From the NCBI RefSeq assembly GCF_037078405.1, contig NZ_JAYMGZ010000001.1:1-64000 (forward strand): DNA of 64,000 nucleotides. The letters run 5' to 3'. The notes below the pieces were generated by a model. That model was not told the DNA's origin and made no database searches. It saw only the letters and a list, made by a program, of their open reading frames with translations. How positions within the stretch are numbered: the first letter of the stretch is position 1; each line of letters starts with the position of its first letter. The position numbers and the translations under genes were made by a program. Source of the stretch: Haloarcula sp. DT43. GTDB taxonomy: Archaea; Halobacteriota; Halobacteria; Halobacteriales; Haloarculaceae. Positions 19,186 through 35,194 of the stretch are shown piece by piece.

Positions 19186-20115
19186 ATGAGTCGTTCGCGC
19201 AAGCCCGACTGGCTGAAGATGCGGCCGCCGTCGGGCGAGCGGTTCACCGACATCAAGCGGACGCTCCGAGACCGGGACCTCAACACGGTCTGTGAGGAGG
19301 CCAACTGCCCCAATCTCGGGGAGTGCTGGAGCGGACGCGACGGCCCGGGGACGGCGACGTTCATGCTCATGGGCGACCGCTGCTCGCGGGGGTGTAACTT
19401 CTGTGACGTCGAGACGGGCGGGATGGAGCCACTGGACCCCGACGAGCCGGAGCGGGTGGCCGACGCCGTCGCGGAAATCGGGCTGGACTACGTCGTCCTC
19501 ACGAGCGTCGACCGCGACGACCTCCCCGACCAGGGCGCGAGCCACTTCGCCGAGACCATCCGCGCCATCAAGGACCGGGACCCCTCGATTCTCGTCGAGT
19601 GTCTCGTTCCGGATTTCCGGGGCGAGCCGGACCTCGTACGGCAGATTATCGACGCCGACCCCGACGTCATCGCCCACAACGTCGAGACGGTCGACCGCCT
19701 CCAGTGGCCAGTCCGGGACCGCCGGGCGGGCTACGAGCAGTCCCTCGCGGTGCTCCGGCAGGTCGACCGCGAGAGCGACGTGTACACGAAGACCAGCCTG
19801 ATGTTGGGCGTCGGCGAGTACGCCCACGAGGTGTACCGGACCCTCTCGGACCTCCGGCAGGCCGGCGTCGACGTGGTGACGTTGGGCCAGTACCTCCAGC
19901 CCTCCCGCTCGCACCTCGAAGTGTCCGAGTACCTCCACCCGGACGTCTTCGACACCTGGCGGCGGGTCGCCGAAGAGGAGTTCGGCTTCCTGTACTGCGC
20001 TTCGGGACCGATGGTCCGCTCGTCGTACCGGGCGGGCGAACTGTTCGTCGAGAGCGTCCTGCGCGAGGGGCAACGCGCCGACGAGGCGCGGGCCGACGTC
20101 CGCGCGAGCGACTGA
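19186..20115 (+). CDS. lipA: Lipoyl synthase
   Basis: This 309-residue radical-SAM enzyme inserts two sulfurs into protein-bound octanoyl groups to make lipoyl cofactors. It shows the auxiliary-cluster cysteines ([12 protein letters not shown], residues about 32-43) and the radical-SAM triad CSRGCNFC (about 66-73), followed by [20 protein letters not shown] and the [12 protein letters not shown] block. The length is normal for the family. It lies 172 bp upstream of the 2-oxoacid dehydrogenase operon, whose E2 protein carries the lipoyl lysine it would modify. The ATG at 19186 gives [11 protein letters not shown]. Confidence 0.95.
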
Positions 20116-20287
20116 TACGTTCGAGTTATCCCGGCGAGGCGTCGTTGGGCTGGAATCGGAACAAACGGGCCACGGCGAACGAATTGTCGGTAATACCTAC
20201 GTGAGAAACTGGATTCAGCCCCGCGAAAGCTCTAAGCGTGGCGCGAGTGAACAGTTATCGTATGCTATTTCGAGGGAGGCGGTTCCC

Positions 20288-21394
20288 GTGAGCGTCCTCC
20301 AGCGCGACCCCGCCGACAGGGTACAGGTCCTCGACGAGGACGGGACGGTGGTCGACGGCGCGACGGTCCCGGACCTCCCGGACGACGACCTGGTCGAGAT
20401 GTACCGCTACCTCAAGCTCGGCCGCCACTTCGACCAGCGGGCGGTGAGCCTCCAACGGCAGGGGCGGATGGGGACCTACCCCCCGATGTCGGGCCAGGAG
20501 GCGTCACAGGTCGGCAGCGCCTTCGCCCTGCGGGACGGCGACTGGCTGTTCCCGAGCTACCGCGAACACGTCGCCCTGGCCGTTCGAGGGTGGGACCTGT
20601 CCGACGACCTGCTGTACTGGATGGGCTCCGAGCGGGGCAATTCGCCGCCGGCGGACGTACAGGTGTTCTCGCTCGCGGTGCCGATTGCGACGCAGATACC
20701 ACACGCGACCGGGGCCGCGTGGGCCGGGAAGCTCCGGGGCGACGACACCGCCGTCCTCGTGTACTTCGGGGACGGGGCCACCAGCGAGGGGGACTTCCAC
20801 GAGGGGCTGAACTTCGCAGGCGTGTTCGACGTGCCGGCAGTGTTCTTCTGTAACAACAATCAGTGGGCCATCTCCGTGCCGCGGGAGCGCCAGACCGCCA
20901 GCGAGACGCTCGCCCAGAAGGCGAACGCCTACGGCTTCGACGGGGTCCAGGTCGACGGGATGGACCCCCTCGCGGTGTATCAGGTGACCCACGAGGCCGT
21001 CGAGAAGGCCCACGACCCGCCGGAGGGACAGCGCCGCCCGACGATGATAGAGGCGGTGCAGTACCGCTTCGGCGCACACACCACCGCCGACGACCCGTCG
21101 GTGTACCGCGAGGACGCCGAGGTCGAGCGCTGGAAGCGGAAAGACCCCATCCCGCGGATGGAGCGGTTCCTGCGGGACCGCGGCCTGCTCGACGACGAGC
21201 GGGTCGCGGCCATCGACGAGTCGGTCCGGGAGGAAGTCGCGGCGGCCATCGACGCCGCGGAGGCGACCGAGCGGCCCAGGCCCGAGGAGCTGTTCGCGGA
21301 CGTGTACGCGGAGATGCCGCGGCGGCTCGAACAGCAGTTGCAGTACCTGGAGGAGCTCCAAGAACGGCACGGCGACGAGGTGCTACTGGAATGA
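20288..21394 (+). CDS. 2-oxoacid (pyruvate) dehydrogenase E1 component, alpha subunit
   Basis: This 368-residue thiamine-diphosphate subunit decarboxylates a 2-oxoacid and passes the acyl group to the E2 lipoyl arm. It has the TPP/magnesium motif ([20 protein letters not shown] ... NNNQWAIS, residues about 155-195), the [15 protein letters not shown] region and [15 protein letters not shown], the phosphorylation-loop segment of E1 alpha. I chose the GTG at 20288 because GGGAGG precedes it at good spacing and homologues start MSVLQRDP. Its stop overlaps the E1 beta start by four bases. The true substrate may be pyruvate or a branched-chain or other 2-oxoacid. Confidence 0.92.
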
Positions 21395-22386
21395 GTACTG
21401 ACACACCGACACAGAGTCTCACGCTCGTCCAAGCCGTCCGCGACGGGCTCTACGGCGAGATGGCGCGCGACGAGGACGTCGTCGTGATGGGCGAGGACGT
21501 CGGGAAGAACGGCGGCGTCTTCCGCGCCACGCAGGGCCTCCACGAGGAGTTCGGCGACGACCGAGTCGTCGACACGCCGCTGGCCGAGTCGGGCATCGTC
21601 GGCACCGCCGTCGGCATGGCGGCCTACGGCCTGCGGCCGGTCCCCGAAATCCAGTTCTCGGGGTTCATGTACCCCGCCTTCGACCAACTCGTGAGCCACG
21701 CCGCCCGCCTGCGGACCCGGAGCCGCGGGCGATACAACTGCCCGCTGACGCTCCGTGCGCCCTACGGCGGCGGCATCCGCGCGCCGGAGCACCACTCCGA
21801 GTCCAAGGAGGCGTTCTACGTCCACGAACCCGGCCTGAAAGTGGTCGTCCCCTCGACCCCGCGGGACACGAAGGGGCTGCTCACCGCGGCCATCCGCGAC
21901 CCCGACCCCGTCGTGTTCCTCGAACCGAAGCTCATCTATCGGTCGTTCCGCGAGGACGTTCCAGACGAGTCCTACACGGTGGAACTCGGCGAGGCCAAGA
22001 CCCGCCGCGAGGGGTCGGACGTGTCGGTGTTCACCTGGGGCGCGATGACCCGGCCGACGCTCGAAGCCGCCGAGGAACTGGCCGGGGAGGGCATCGACGC
22101 CGAGGTGGTCGACCTGCGGACGCTCTCGCCGATGGACACCGACGCCATCGTCGAGTCGTTCAAGAAGACCGGACGGGCGGCCGTCGTCCACGAGGCCCCA
22201 AAGACCGGCGGGCTGGCCGGCGAAATCATCGCCACCATCCAGGAGGAGGCGCTGCTGTACCAGGAAGCGCCGATAACGCGCGTCACGGGCTTCGACGTGC
22301 CCTACCCGCTGTACGCCCTGGAGGACTACTACCTCCCCGAGCCCGCCCGCATCAAAGACGGTATCAGAGAGGCAGTCGAGTTCTGA
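21391..22386 (+). CDS. 2-oxoacid (pyruvate) dehydrogenase E1 component, beta subunit
   Basis: This 331-residue transketolase-like beta subunit completes the E1 active site. Landmarks are [59 protein letters not shown], the [17 protein letters not shown] loop that contacts the cofactor, and the C-terminal domain [20 protein letters not shown]. It starts in an ATGA overlap with the alpha gene, and only 3 bases separate its stop from the E2 start, so the three genes form one operon. Confidence 0.93.
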
Positions 22387-22389
22387 GTC

Positions 22390-24033
22390 ATGTTCGAGTT
22401 CAAGCTCCCGGACCTCGGCGAAGGGGTCGCCGAGGGGGAGGTACTCGCCTGGCACGTCGCGCCGGGCGACGCCGTGACCGAGGACCAGGTGCTGGCCGAG
22501 GTGGAGACCGACAAGGCCGCCGTCGACGTGCCGTCGCCGGTCGACGGCGTCGTCCGGGACCTGCACGCCGAGGTCGGCGACGTGGTACAGACCGGCGAGG
22601 TGCTGGTCACCATCGCGGAGGACGGCGATGCGGAGAGCGAAGCGGCCGGCGCGGAAAGCGAAAGCGTCGACGAGGTAGGAGACGACGCGACAGCGGAGGG
22701 CGAAGCGGATTCGAGTACTGACGGCGACGCCGCGGCCGAGAGCGGAACCGCGTCGGCCCGCGGCGGCCGCGTGTTCGCGTCGCCCAGCGTCCGCCGCCTG
22801 GCCCGCGAGCGTGGCGTCGACGTGACGGCCGTCCAGGGGAGCGGCCCCGGCGGCCGCGTCACGGAGAGCGACATAGAGGCGGCGGCGCAGTCGGCCGACG
22901 AGAGGGACTCAGAGGAGGAGGACGGTCCAACGTCGGTCGTCTCGAAGGTATCGGACGCCGACGAAGGTGACGAGAGCGACGGCCCCACATCGGTCGTCTC
23001 GCGGGTCGACGACGGCGAGACGGACGAGGGCGACGACGGGCCGGCCGTGAAGTCGGCCGTCCGGAAGGTCAGCGAGGAGCCACAGGCCGAGCGGCGCGAG
23101 CAGACGCTGGCGACGCCCGCCACCAGGAAGGTGGCCCGCGACCTCGGCGTGGACATCGACGCCGTCCCGACCGACGAGCAGCGGGACGGCGAACCGTACG
23201 TCGACGCGGGGGCGGTCCGGGCCTACGCAGAGGCTCAGCAGGCCGCGCAGGCGGCCGACGCCGAGGCGGTCAGCGGCGACGGGGCGGCGAGCGACGCCGG
23301 GACCGGGGCGGCCGACACCGGCGTCGAGGCGAGCGATGGCGACCGGCGCGAGCCCTACCGCGGCATCCGTCGGCGCATCGGCGAGCAGATGGCGCGCTCG
23401 CGCCGCGAGGTCCCCCACGCCACCCACCACGACATGGCTGAGGTCTCGGGGCTGGTCGCGGCCCGCGAGCGCCTCGAACCGCTGGCCGAGGAGCGCGGCG
23501 TCCGTCTGACGTACACGCCGCTCGTGCTGAAGTGCGTCGCCGCGGCGCTGGACCAGCACCCGATTCTCAACACGGCGCTCGACACCGAGGCCGAGGAAAT
23601 CGTCTACCGCGACAGCTACAACGTCGGCGTCGCGACGGCGACCGACCACGGGCTGGTCGTCCCGGTCGTCGACGACGTGGACGAGAAGGGCATCCTGGAA
23701 ATCGCGCGCGAGGTGAACGACCTCGTCGAGCGGGCGCGCAGCCGCGACATAGAGCGCGCGGAGATGCAGGGCGGGACGTTCACGGTGACGAACTTCGGAG
23801 CCATCGGCGGCGAGTACGCCAGCCCGATCATCAACGTCCCCGAGACGGCGATTCTCGGCATCGGCTCGCTAGCGGAGCGGCCGGTCGCGGAAGACGGGGA
23901 CGTCGTCGCCAGCCCCACGCTCCCGCTGTCGCTGGCTATCGACCACCGCGTCATCGACGGGGCCGACGCCGCCCGCTTCGGCAACACGCTCGAGGCGTAT
24001 CTGGCGGACCCGACGCGCCTGTTGCTGGAGTAG
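22390..24033 (+). CDS. 2-oxoacid dehydrogenase E2, dihydrolipoyl acyltransferase, with two subunit-binding domains
   Basis: This 547-residue core subunit has a lipoyl domain (residues 1-78, lysine in EVETDKAAVDVPSPVDG near residue 41), an acidic linker, a first peripheral-subunit-binding domain (FASPSVRRLARERGVDV, about 125-165), a linker with a repeated DGPTSVVSKV/DGPTSVVSRV decapeptide, a second such domain (LATPATRKVARDLGVDI, about 238-280), another linker, and the acyltransferase domain from about residue 320 with the catalytic DHRVIDGADAARF near 517. Most E2 proteins have one binding domain, so two is notable. The gene follows E1 beta by 3 bp and would be lipoylated through LipA. Confidence 0.93.
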   Translation: MFEFKLPDLGEGVAEGEVLAWHVAPGDAVTEDQVLAEVETDKAAVDVPSPVDGVVRDLHAEVGDVVQTGEVLVTIAEDGDAESEAAGAESESVDEVGDDATAEGEADSSTDGDAAAESGTASARGGRVFASPSVRRLARERGVDVTAVQGSGPGGRVTESDIEAAAQSADERDSEEEDGPTSVVSKVSDADEGDESDGPTSVVSRVDDGETDEGDDGPAVKSAVRKVSEEPQAERREQTLATPATRKVARDLGVDIDAVPTDEQRDGEPYVDAGAVRAYAEAQQAAQAADAEAVSGDGAASDAGTGAADTGVEASDGDRREPYRGIRRRIGEQMARSRREVPHATHHDMAEVSGLVAARERLEPLAEERGVRLTYTPLVLKCVAAALDQHPILNTALDTEAEEIVYRDSYNVGVATATDHGLVVPVVDDVDEKGILEIAREVNDLVERARSRDIERAEMQGGTFTVTNFGAIGGEYASPIINVPETAILGIGSLAERPVAEDGDVVASPTLPLSLAIDHRVIDGADAARFGNTLEAYLADPTRLLLE

Positions 24034-24177
24034 GCCGTTCCACGTCGGTCACGTCGGCGTGGGCGTCGCCGGAAGCTGCGCCGTAGCTGTGCGTCTGCCA
24101 TGCCGATGGGGACGGCCACCACCGTGCCATAGTTTGCCACTGAGTACTGCTGTCAGGATTTGAAATGCTGCCCACAG

Positions 24178-24187
24178 CGTTATACGC
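24178..24187 (+). promoter_or_regulatory. TATA box of the kinase gene inside the dehydrogenase operon
   Basis: CGTTATACGC is centred 26 bases before the ATG at 24209. It suggests that the kinase has its own leaderless promoter despite sitting between E2 and E3. The region 24034-24177 holds nothing else obvious. Confidence 0.55.
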
Positions 24188-24208: not shown

Positions 24209-26554
24209 ATGGAATTACCGGCGGTCGTCCTGTACGTCGGGACGGAGGACGGCGCGGACGCCGTTCGTCGGCGGCTGCCCGCCGGCAACGGAATCGCCGT
24301 CGAGGCCGCCGCCGGACAGCGGGCTGGACTGGCCGCCGTCGAGTCCGGGGTCGTCGACTGCGTCGTGACCGAACAGTCCCTCAGCGACGGCGACGGGCTC
24401 TCGCTCCTGCGGGCCGTCCGAGCGGCCGACGAGACGCTGCCCGTCCTCCTCTTCGCGGCAGGCGACGACGAGTCGCTGGCCAGCGAGGCGCTGGCGAGCG
24501 GCGTGACCGGGTTCGTCCCGCGGGTCGGTGACGCCGGCTACGACCTGCTCGCCGACCGAATCGAGGCGGTCCTCGACCACCGGTCGGCCGAGCGGCGCGC
24601 GACGCGGTACGAGCACATCGCCGCAGTCAGCCGGGAAATCAACCGAGCGCTGCTGTCGGCCCGCGACCGGCAGACGCTGGAGGGGCGCGTCTGCGACATC
24701 ATCACCGAGTCCGAGCCGTACCGTTTCGCTTGGATCGGCTGTCACGACCCGGAGACAGACGCCATCGAACCGCGCGCCGGCGGCGGCGACGAGCAGGGCT
24801 ACCTCGACGAGATTTCCGTGACGGCCGCAGAGAGCGAGCGGGGCCGGGGTCCCGCCGGACGGGCGATACGGAACGGCGAGATACAGGTCTGCCAGGACAT
24901 CGAACGCGACTCCTCGTTCGAGCCGTGGCGGGAGGCCGCACTGGAGCGCGGTTTCCGGTCGGTCGCGGCCGTGCCGCTGACCTACGACGGCGTGTCCTAC
25001 GGGGCGCTGTTCGTCTACGCCGACCGGACCGACGCCTTCGACGCGTCGGAGGTAGAGCTGCTGAGCGACGTCGGCCGGGACATCGCCTACGCTACCAACA
25101 CGCTGGAACTCAGAGACGAAGTGGAGAAGCTGGCCGAGTTCTTCGAGCACGCCCCGGTCGGGGTGTTCGTGACCGAGCCGGTCGAGGACGGTGTCGTCCT
25201 CGAAGCGAACCCGGAGATGGCGACGCTACTCGGGGCCGAGAGCGCCGACGACCTCGTAGGTCGGAAGGTTATCGAGGCGTACGCGAACCCGGCGGAACGC
25301 GAGACCGTCCTCGAAGCGATTCGTGAGCGCGGGAAAGTGAGCCGGGAACTGGAGCTGGAGACGGTCGGCGGACAGACGGTCTGGGGGCTCCTGACGGAGA
25401 TACTGAGCGAGCGCCGGGACGGCCGGCCCGTCATCGTGGGGATGGTCAAGGACATCACCAGCAAGAAGCACATCCAGGAGCGCCTCGGCGAGCAGCTCGC
25501 GTTCATCGAGTCCGTGCTGGAGTCGAGCCCGGTCGCTATCGCCGTGCTCGACCGCGACGGGACCGTCCTCCGCGCCAACGGCTACGCCAAGGAGGTGCTG
25601 GACCTGGAGACCGTCGAAATCCTCGGTCGACCGACCGAGGGCACGGAGTGGCGGGTCTTCGACGACCGGACGGACCTGCTCGACATCGGCGACCTGCCGT
25701 TCGACCGCGTCGTGGCGACCGGTGAGCCGGTGTACGGCCACGAGCACGCCGTCGAGCAGTCGGACGGTGAGACGGTGTGGCTCTCGACCAACATGGTCCC
25801 GGTGACGAACGGCGACGGCGAGGTCGTCCGCACGGTGGCTGCCATCGCGGACGTGACCGAACTCCGCAGAAAGGAGTCGGAACTCGAGGCGCGCCAGTCC
25901 CAGATAGCCTTCTTCAACAACCTCCTCCGGCACGAGGTGCTCAACGGGATGACCGTCGTCCTCGGCGGGACGGAACGCCTCCTCGACGCGATGGACGAGG
26001 ACGACGAGCGGCGGGCGCTTGTCGAACAAATCGACGACCGGGGGGTCGAGATGGTCGACACGGTCCAGCGGGTCCGTCGCGTCCTCCGGCAGATTGCGGA
26101 CGAGTCCCCGGCGGTCGAACCGCACGACCTCGCGTCGGTCGTCGACGACTGCGTGGCGCGACTCGAACTCGACTATCCGGCCGCCGCCGTCACCGTCGAC
26201 GCGCCAGCGGCGGCCCCGGTCCTCGCCGACGAACTGCTCGAAGAGGTCGTGTACAACGTCCTCGTCAACGCCGTCGAGCACAACGACGGCGACGACCCCA
26301 GCGCGTGGGTCTCGGTGACGGTCGAGGGCGAGACGACGGTCATCCGCATCGAGGACGACGGCCCCGGCATCGACCCGGCGATTCGAGACAGGGTGTTCGG
26401 CCGTGACGGTTGGCAGACGGCACCGGTCAGCGCGAACGGGTTCGGCCTGCACTTCGTCGAGACGATGGTGACGCAGTACGACGGGTCGGTCCGCATCGAG
26501 GACCGCGAGCCCCGCGGGACACGAATCGTCGTCGAACTGCCGACCGCGGACTGA
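24209..26554 (+). CDS. Multidomain sensor histidine kinase with a degenerate receiver domain
   Basis: This 781-residue soluble kinase has an N-terminal receiver-like domain (about 5-125), GAF (about 150-285, with the REINRALLSARDRQTLEGRV lead-in), two PAS domains (about 300-425 and 428-555), a HisKA-like helix pair with the phosphoacceptor in LLRHEVLNGMTVV (about 575) and a HATPase domain (N box NVLVNAVEHND, G1 EDDGPGID, G2 NGFGLHFVE). In the receiver the phosphoacceptor Asp is Glu (VDCVVTEQ, residue 55), and the Thr and Lys switch residues are also replaced, so it should not be phosphorylated. There are no membrane segments, so the signals are cytoplasmic. It sits between E2 and E3 of the dehydrogenase operon. 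Confidence 0.9.
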   Translation: MELPAVVLYVGTEDGADAVRRRLPAGNGIAVEAAAGQRAGLAAVESGVVDCVVTEQSLSDGDGLSLLRAVRAADETLPVLLFAAGDDESLASEALASGVTGFVPRVGDAGYDLLADRIEAVLDHRSAERRATRYEHIAAVSREINRALLSARDRQTLEGRVCDIITESEPYRFAWIGCHDPETDAIEPRAGGGDEQGYLDEISVTAAESERGRGPAGRAIRNGEIQVCQDIERDSSFEPWREAALERGFRSVAAVPLTYDGVSYGALFVYADRTDAFDASEVELLSDVGRDIAYATNTLELRDEVEKLAEFFEHAPVGVFVTEPVEDGVVLEANPEMATLLGAESADDLVGRKVIEAYANPAERETVLEAIRERGKVSRELELETVGGQTVWGLLTEILSERRDGRPVIVGMVKDITSKKHIQERLGEQLAFIESVLESSPVAIAVLDRDGTVLRANGYAKEVLDLETVEILGRPTEGTEWRVFDDRTDLLDIGDLPFDRVVATGEPVYGHEHAVEQSDGETVWLSTNMVPVTNGDGEVVRTVAAIADVTELRRKESELEARQSQIAFFNNLLRHEVLNGMTVVLGGTERLLDAMDEDDERRALVEQIDDRGVEMVDTVQRVRRVLRQIADESPAVEPHDLASVVDDCVARLELDYPAAAVTVDAPAAAPVLADELLEEVVYNVLVNAVEHNDGDDPSAWVSVTVEGETTVIRIEDDGPGIDPAIRDRVFGRDGWQTAPVSANGFGLHFVETMVTQYDGSVRIEDREPRGTRIVVELPTAD

Positions 26555-26616
26555 CCGGGCACGGCGACGGCACGGGAAGGGCGATACCTTTTCACCGGCC
26601 CCTGCGAGAAGCCGCT

Positions 26617-28035
26617 ATGGTTGTCGGAGACGTCACTACGGGAACCGAACTGCTCGTCATCGGCGGCGGTCCGGGCGGCTACGTCGCCGCCATCCGGGGC
26701 GCGCAACTGGGACTTGACACGACGCTCGTCGAGCGCGACGCCTACGGCGGGACCTGCCTGAACCACGGCTGCATCCCGTCGAAGGCCCTCATCTCGGCGT
26801 CGGACGTGGCCCACGACGCCGGGCAGGCCGAGGAGATGGGCGTGTTCGCCGACCCGGCCGTCGACATGGCCGGGATGACCGAGTGGAAAGACGGCGTCGT
26901 CACGCGGCTGACGAGAGGCGTCGAGGCGCTGTGTGAGAGCGCCGGCGTCGAACTGGTGGAGGGGGCCGCCGAGTTCGTCGACGACGGGACGGTCAGGGTC
27001 GCCCACGGCGGCGAGGGGCAGGGCTCCGAGTCCATCGCCTTCGAGCACGCCGTCGTCGCCACGGGGAGCCGACCGGTCGAGGTCCCGGGCTTCGAGTTCG
27101 ACGGCGAGCGAATCCTCTCCTCGAAGGACGCGCTAGCGCTTGAGTCGGTCCCCGAGAAGCTCGTCGTCGTCGGCGCGGGGTACATCGGGATGGAGCTGTC
27201 GACGGTGTTCGCCAAACTGGGTGCGGAGGTGACGGTCGTGGAGATGCTCGAGGACGCGTTGCCCGGCTACGAGGACGACGTGGCGGCGGTCGTCCGGGAG
27301 CGGGCCGCGGACCTAGGCATCGATTTCAACTTCGGCGAGGCGGCCGACGGCTGGGAGGAGACGGCCGATGGCATCCGGGTCCGGACCCTCGACACCGACG
27401 ACGAGGTCACCGAGTACAACGCCGAGCAGTGTCTGGTCGCGGTCGGGCGCGAGCCGGTCACCGACACGGTGAACCTCGACGCGATAGCCCTCCAGCCCGA
27501 CGAGGACGGGGCCCTGCCGACCGACGAGCAGTGCCGGACGGCCGCCGAGAGCGTCTTCGCCGTCGGCGACGTGGCCGGCGAGCCGATGCTGGCCCACAAG
27601 GCGATGGCCGAGGGGAAAGTCGCCGCCGAAGCCGCCGCCGGGGAGCCGGCCGCCTTCGACCACCAGGCGATTCCAGCCGCGGTGTTTACCGACCCCGAAA
27701 TCGCCACCGTCGGCATGACCGAACGCGAGGCCGAGGCGGCCGGCTTCGACCCGGTCACCGGGGAGATGCCGCTACGGGCCAACGGCCGCGCGCTCACCGT
27801 CAACGAGCGGGATGGGTTCGTCCGCGTCGTCGCCGACGCCGACGAGGAGTTCCTGCTCGGGGCCCAGATAGTCGGCCCGGAGGCGTCCGAACTCGTCGCC
27901 GAACTCGGCCTGGGAATCGAGATGGGCGCGCGGCTGGAGGACGTCGCCGGGACGATTCACACGCACCCGACGCTCTCCGAGGCGGTGCACGAGGCGGCCG
28001 CGGCCGCCCGCGGCGAGGCGGTTCACACGCGGTAG
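26617..28035 (+). CDS. lpdA: Dihydrolipoyl dehydrogenase (E3)
   Basis: This 472-residue FAD enzyme reoxidises the E2 lipoyl group, producing NADH. It has the FAD loop VIGGGPGGYVAAIRGAQLG, the redox disulfide GGTCLNHGCIPSKAL (residues about 44-58), the NAD loop VVVGAGYIGMELSTVFAKLG, the FAVGDVAGEPMLAHKA segment, and the C-terminal His-Glu pair in HTHPTLSEAVHEAA. The ATG at 26617 gives MVVGDVTTGTELLV. It is 62 bp after the kinase gene, with a weak TATA-like sequence (ATACCTTTTC) between, so it could be read from its own promoter as well as with E1-E2. Confidence 0.94.
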   Translation: MVVGDVTTGTELLVIGGGPGGYVAAIRGAQLGLDTTLVERDAYGGTCLNHGCIPSKALISASDVAHDAGQAEEMGVFADPAVDMAGMTEWKDGVVTRLTRGVEALCESAGVELVEGAAEFVDDGTVRVAHGGEGQGSESIAFEHAVVATGSRPVEVPGFEFDGERILSSKDALALESVPEKLVVVGAGYIGMELSTVFAKLGAEVTVVEMLEDALPGYEDDVAAVVRERAADLGIDFNFGEAADGWEETADGIRVRTLDTDDEVTEYNAEQCLVAVGREPVTDTVNLDAIALQPDEDGALPTDEQCRTAAESVFAVGDVAGEPMLAHKAMAEGKVAAEAAAGEPAAFDHQAIPAAVFTDPEIATVGMTEREAEAAGFDPVTGEMPLRANGRALTVNERDGFVRVVADADEEFLLGAQIVGPEASELVAELGLGIEMGARLEDVAGTIHTHPTLSEAVHEAAAAARGEAVHTR

Positions 28036-34396: not shown

Positions 34397-35194
34397 GTGC
34401 CCGAACCGATTGCCGTTCTCCACGTCGACGACGACCCCGACTTCGCCGAACTGGCGGCGACCCTCCTGGAACGGCAGGACGACCGTCTCACCGTGGTCCG
34501 GGCAGACAGCACCGGCGATGGCCAGGAGGTGCTGGCGGAGCGTCCCGTCGACTGCGTCGTCTCCGACTACGACATGCCGCGCCGGAACGGCATCGAGTTC
34601 CTGCAGGCGATACGCGAGCAGCATCCCGACCTCCCGTTTATCTTGTTTACCGGGAAGGGAAGCGAGGAAATCGCCAGCGAGGCCATCTCCGCCGGCGTCA
34701 CCGACTACCTCCAGAAGGGCAGCGACGTCGAGCGGTACGAACTCCTGGCCAACCGGGTCACGAACGCCGTCGCGCAGAACCGGGCCCAGCAGCGGGCGCT
34801 CGAAACCACACAGCGCTACGAGACGCTGTTTACGCACACGACGAACGCGATTGCCTCGGTCGAACTGCGGAACGGGGACCCGATAATCCAGTCGGTCAAC
34901 CCCGCGTTCGAGGCGACGTTCGTCCCGCCGGGAACGGACGTCGCCGGCCGGAACCTGGACCGGGTCATCACGGCGACCGACGCCCAGCGGGAACAGGCCG
35001 AACGCATCACGAGTCGTGCGGAGACGGGTGATATTACGACCACGGAGGTCACGCGCCAGACGGTCGACGGCCCCCGGACGTTCCAGCTCCAGTCGGTGCC
35101 GATAAACCCCGACGATGCGGACGGGTTCTGTTCGGCCTTCGCGGTGTACACCGACATCACCGATATCGCCGGGGACGGCGGGACGCCGCCGTAG
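34397..35194 (+). CDS. Response regulator with receiver and PAS domains
   Basis: This 265-residue protein has an N-terminal receiver (about 1-125) with a full active site: Asp pair in VLHVDDDPDF, phosphoacceptor Asp57 in VDCVVSDYDMP, Thr and Lys in FTGKGSEE/YLQKGSDV. A PAS domain (about 145-260) follows, with YETLFTHTTNAIASVELRNG. No DNA-binding or kinase output is visible, and there is no cognate kinase beside it. I chose the GTG at 34397 (VPEPIAVLHVDDD), where homologues begin, with an upstream T-rich box at leaderless distance; an ATG at 34361 is the alternative. Confidence 0.88.
   Translation: MPEPIAVLHVDDDPDFAELAATLLERQDDRLTVVRADSTGDGQEVLAERPVDCVVSDYDMPRRNGIEFLQAIREQHPDLPFILFTGKGSEEIASEAISAGVTDYLQKGSDVERYELLANRVTNAVAQNRAQQRALETTQRYETLFTHTTNAIASVELRNGDPIIQSVNPAFEATFVPPGTDVAGRNLDRVITATDAQREQAERITSRAETGDITTTEVTRQTVDGPRTFQLQSVPINPDDADGFCSAFAVYTDITDIAGDGGTPP

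Follow-up and report, generated by a model that had tools for sequence, protein, structure and literature searches.

A sensor kinase with a pseudo-receiver in the variable E2–E3 interval of a Haloarcula 2-oxoacid dehydrogenase locus

The 781-residue sensor kinase encoded between the E2 and E3 genes of a 2-oxoacid dehydrogenase locus in Haloarcula sp. DT43 is best explained as an ordinary orphan sensor kinase, one with no special tie to the dehydrogenase and placed beside lpd by chance; we put the probability of this reading at about 0.77. Judged from the gene orders of its relatives, the kinase is a young occupant of the interval, limited to one small lineage, and the interval itself is, in Haloarcula, a variable slot where unrelated genes turn over. 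The evidence also supports assignment of the N-terminal domain as a pseudo-receiver, without the residues that ordinary phosphotransfer requires.

The kinase and its genomic setting

The window—the whole stretch of 64,000 nucleotides that was analysed—contains the following features, given with the evidence for each.

20201..21394, + strand: E1 alpha (Pfam E1_dh, 2e-84; NCBIfam TIGR03181 above cut-off)
21391..22386, + strand: E1 beta (Pfam Transket_pyr, Transketolase_C)
22390..24033, + strand: E2 (Pfam 2-oxoacid_dh, Biotin_lipoyl, E3_binding)
24043..24101, − strand: remnant of a CMD-family gene, intact in H. salina (alignment score)
24180..24184, + strand: TATA-like element of the kinase gene, TTATA, 29 nt 5' of the ATG (conserved in H. 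salina)
24209..26554, + strand: sensor histidine kinase, pseudo-REC-GAF-PAS-PAS-HK, 781 aa (ORF, Pfam, H. salina ortholog)
24209..24583, + strand: pseudo-receiver domain, residues 1-125 (Pfam, AlphaFold2, Foldseek)
24371..24373, + strand: codon of Glu55, phosphoacceptor position, end of strand 3 (alignment to Asp-bearing receivers, and model)
24662..25093, + strand: GAF domain, residues 152-295 (Pfam GAF_2, 6e-22)
25127..25870, + strand: two PAS domains, residues 307-416 and 437-554 (Pfam PAS, PAS_4)
25931..25933, + strand: codon of His575, H-box LLRHEVLNGM (homologue alignment)
26234..26545, + strand: HATPase_c, residues 676-779 (Pfam, 1.5e-19)
26583..26593, + strand: promoter-like element of lpd, CGATACCTTTT region (motif conservation)
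26617..28035, + strand: E3, dihydrolipoyl dehydrogenase, lpd (NCBIfam TIGR01350, 513 bits against a cut-off of 408.8)

The E1 alpha, E1 beta and E2 genes are as tightly linked as the initial annotation of this DNA had described: E1 alpha ends at 21394 and overlaps the E1 beta ATG at 21391 by 4 bp, and E1 beta, ending at 22386, is separated from the E2 start at 22390 by 3 bp. The ORF and its Pfam matches likewise confirm the kinase gene, with its GAF and PAS domains, between E2 and E3; 62 bp separate it from lpd. The lipoyl synthase gene lipA (19186-20115) lies immediately 5' of E1 alpha, as it does in most congeners. The E1 alpha, E1 beta, E2 and E3 genes are of the same enzyme type as the OADHC clusters of Haloferax volcanii, for which one paralog has been assigned to isoleucine catabolism and the substrates are otherwise unsettled (PMC8305020, PMC3235422).

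An N-terminal receiver-like domain (Pfam Response_reg at residues 22-104, 41.5 bits against a cut-off of 30.2), GAF and PAS domains between, and an acceptor His with HATPase_c give the protein the REC-(GAF/PAS)n-HK architecture. According to a 2018 census of archaeal two-component proteins, this architecture accounts for almost 20% of REC proteins, and up to 40% of the receivers in the class are possibly not phosphorylatable, none having been characterised (PMC5847659). The window kinase shares the layout of that class, being cytosolic and without a fused output, and differs in that its HisKA part has no Pfam match, although the H-box around His575 is plain in alignment. The closest homologue outside its own ortholog group is a kinase from another genus of the family (G325, locus L212), which matches over its full length at 43% identity, has the same domain order and carries the H-box LLRHEVLNGMTVVLG; it has Thr at the acceptor site where the window kinase has Glu. 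Degenerate receivers in the same architecture also occur in other haloarchaea.

Two ideas about the source of the gene were set aside. A mobile-element origin was rejected on the lack of notable flanking repeats and on composition—GC 0.694 and GC3 0.895, the same as neighbouring genes—so there is no sign of a recent foreign source. Plasmid relatives were rejected as a close donor, their matches reaching only 31-40%. The nearest other two-component gene in the window is a REC-PAS ORF at about 34400-35194 (+ strand), about 8 kb downstream, whose receiver keeps its active-site residues (VDDD, Asp, Thr, Lys); H. salina likewise has a receiver about 8.5 kb downstream.

Turnover in the E2–E3 interval

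The initial annotation held that haloarchaeal E1-E2-E3 genes normally form one unbroken operon, and from the exception it proposed a kinase linked to the complex. The premise fails in Haloarcula. Across the genus as delimited by GTDB, E2 and E3 are never adjacent, the gap being at least 416 bp in all 23 loci that have E3 downstream; the stretch retrieved for another seven loci showed no E3. Thirteen of the 23 gaps hold an ORF for a membrane protein of roughly 133 aa and four an antisense CMD-family gene, while membrane and CMD genes together, an antisense CheF-arch gene, and the kinase are each found in two. Gene order across Halobacteria, which the initial annotation had proposed to compare, offers no better footing: outside Haloarcula, 60 loci of the order were compared, and E2 and E3 lie within 225 bp in only 31, with other genes between them in 17, no E3 in the stretch in 11 and a broken E3 in one. 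No kinase was detected in the E2–E3 gap of any of these 60 outgroup loci.

Several occupants of the interval merit description in their own right. The antisense CheF-arch gene of two congeners (L086, L089) encodes an archaeal taxis protein (Pfam, 1.2e-52). AhpD is known for its Cys pair. The antisense CMD-family protein (L066, L080-L085) does not have that pair and carries instead the motif EGAVHSHVRRGL, making an AhpD-like thiol link to lipoamide or Lpd unlikely. In six loci of other haloarchaea (L161, L177, L178, L183, L192, L197) a same-strand gene between E2 and E3 is threonine dehydratase-like (PALP and ACT), a call that rests on Pfam for one and on evident similarity for the others; some of the six add acyl-CoA dehydrogenase, LUD-domain or Lrp/AsnC genes. 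Such neighbours hint at 2-oxobutyrate or branched-chain 2-oxoacids as the substrate of this complex type.

The history of the slot can be traced through the closest named genome, that of Haloarcula salina YGHS18. Whole-genome searches found an ortholog of the kinase only there, at 87% identity, and a scan of genome contigs likewise returned H. salina as the one true ortholog; no further one came to light among other congeners or across the order (293 genomes; E 1e-90, identity above 43%). Phylogenetic analysis of E1 beta, E2 and E3 pairs the window species with H. salina (support 0.99); this pair has the 13 membrane-gene loci as its sister group, and the CMD loci, with or without a membrane gene, fall outside both groups. 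In H. salina, E2 is followed by the antisense CMD gene and then by the kinase gene, ahead of E3, which puts the kinase in the place of the membrane gene of its relatives. The window species retains a trace of that order, for the CMD remnant keeps its start-codon and stop-codon ends and has lost about 270 bp of interior; its alignment score of 31.7 compares with a mean of -32.7 for shuffles (sd 7.1, maximum -13.4), and the rest of the genome yielded no CMD match. The likely course of events is that, in the ancestor of the two species, the kinase entered the space between the antisense CMD gene and lpd, the space that houses the small membrane-protein gene in relatives, and that the window species afterwards lost its CMD gene by internal deletion.

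GAF and PAS domains can bind small molecules. That capacity, together with a same-strand position between E2 and E3 retained in both species, is what commends the idea that the kinase regulates the 2-oxoacid dehydrogenase complex, or reads one of its metabolites, the linkage being an adaptive acquisition in a small lineage. We regard it as very unlikely, however, given that only two sister species share the arrangement, with no kinase detected in the slot among the outgroup loci, that the slot accepts unrelated genes, antisense ones included, and that the nearest homologue is distant from E2 in its own genome: the G325 kinase gene lies at 2.26 Mb and E2 at 1.39 Mb of the same contig, about 0.87 Mb apart, whereas the window kinase adjoins E2 and E3. 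Conserved linkage of the kinase to dehydrogenase genes across lineages was thus not found. The window and H. salina kinases differ with a dN/dS of 0.26, indicating purifying selection, at a third-site divergence (dS) of 0.27, and the protein is probably a working sensor; the kinase has also kept its location in each of the two species ever since they diverged, a period in which the CMD gene next to it disappeared from the window species. Some benefit of its position is conceivable on those two grounds. The more specific proposal, that the H. salina lineage captured the kinase beside lpd and now tunes the complex through a metabolite-reading GAF, PAS or pseudo-receiver domain, is very doubtful.

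A receiver without its phosphotransfer residues

The acidic pair, phosphoacceptor Asp, switch Thr and switch Lys are all replaced in the N-terminal domain, while the receiver fold is kept. In alignment, the DCVVSDY of a typical haloarchaeal receiver becomes DCVVTEQ, with Glu55 at the Asp site; VDD becomes VGT; FTGKG becomes FAAGD, with Ala for the switch Thr; and Arg105 takes the Lys position. The initial annotation had read these residues in the same way. AlphaFold2, given an 11-sequence alignment, models the domain confidently as a (beta-alpha)5 receiver (pLDDT 93.8), with strand 3 spanning residues 51-55 and Glu55 at its end, and the top Foldseek matches of the modelled domain are receiver domains. 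A conserved Asp elsewhere in the active site, which the initial annotation had named as a finding that would count against it, is present in neither the model nor the alignments. A 2025 review lists Asp to Glu, Thr to Ala and Lys to Arg among common pseudo-receiver replacements (PMC12632262); the window kinase has the same three, on a fold that the model likewise predicts to be retained.

It is tempting to read Glu55 as a conserved phosphomimetic, one by which the receiver and hence the kinase would be locked in an active-like state; the initial annotation had suggested a fixed receiver as one of two options. No replacement is commoner in pseudo-receivers than Asp to Glu (PMC12632262), Glu55 is retained in the H. 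salina ortholog, and the modelled fold appears well formed. Such a role is nevertheless very unlikely. With the metal-binding acidic pair and the switch Thr and Lys gone, the normal active-state chemistry is not left. Nor is the residue constant, for the full-length homologues closest to the kinase carry Thr, Gly, Thr, Ser or Glu at the acceptor site, and this variation weakens the case for a conserved Glu; of that suggestion, then, the pseudo-receiver is borne out and the fixed phosphomimetic is not. Among 30 loci retrieved with the kinase receiver as query, the acceptor site is Asp in 19, Ser in five, Glu in four (the window kinase among them) and Ala in two. A second recurrent haloarchaeal pseudo-receiver type, with a Ser acceptor (DCVVTSYSLPDGTG), was seen in L010, L011, L017, L121, L126, L129 and L133.

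Comparison of the two orthologs also counts against the phosphomimetic role. At 0.54, dN/dS is higher in the receiver than in any other part (0.18-0.29), with residue changes at 27 of 125 positions compared with 77 of 656 elsewhere (Fisher p 0.006). Rapid change of this kind fits a domain freed from phosphotransfer.

The same tempo argues against a further alternative, in which the pseudo-receiver would bind a ligand and gate the kinase, by analogy with the c-di-GMP-binding pseudo-receiver of ShkA in Caulobacter. Several bacterial pseudo-receivers do bind ligands (PMC12632262), and an invariant VDCVVTEQ block is common to the kinase receiver and Halorubrum proteins. Those proteins were, however, retrieved with that very peptide as probe, so the Glu in them is a biased sample, and they were kept out of the frequency counts. 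In a domain that is changing more quickly than the remainder of the kinase, we consider ligand gating very improbable.

Transcription and the meaning of position

The initial annotation gave the kinase gene its own TATA box, and a TATA-like TTATA is indeed found at 24180, inside a block conserved with H. salina. Downstream, a CTTTT lies 29 nt 5' of the lpd ATG, within CGATANCTTTT at -35, in 15 of 15 ingroup loci, 13 of which are kinase-free. Positions about 29 nt upstream of the ATG fit leaderless haloarchaeal transcripts. Both elements sit at such positions, and the kinase and lpd are therefore likely to be transcribed separately, as far as motif conservation can indicate; read-through from the kinase into lpd is possible, given the short gap. 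Promoter-like elements of their own for kinase and lpd are a further point against a regulatory tie and, with the variable gap and the restriction to two sister species, they leave the proposed link to the dehydrogenase complex unsupported. What emerges is largely the outcome that the initial annotation had itself set against its proposal: a recent, lineage-specific insertion, with expression that is probably unlinked.

We therefore return to the orphan sensor kinase as the preferred explanation. The protein would be a member, with a degenerate receiver, of the established REC-(GAF/PAS)n-HK class. Its gene would probably be transcribed as its own leaderless unit, with lpd retaining an older promoter 3' of it. 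The GAF and PAS domains would control autophosphorylation at His575, from which the phosphoryl group would pass to a response regulator encoded at an unlinked locus, and the pseudo-receiver may serve, without being phosphorylated, as a structural, dimerising or ligand-read module. Its position next to the dehydrogenase genes would then have no functional meaning.

Gene order from one genome can mislead. In Haloarcula the E2–E3 interval is a turnover site for unrelated genes, which makes the position of the kinase weak evidence of function, and a regulatory claim built upon it is of little weight. As for the protein itself, the 2025 review was aware of no published work on the function of any archaeal pseudo-receiver (PMC12632262). 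In a class that is experimentally unexplored, this kinase offers a usable, if not a special, test case.
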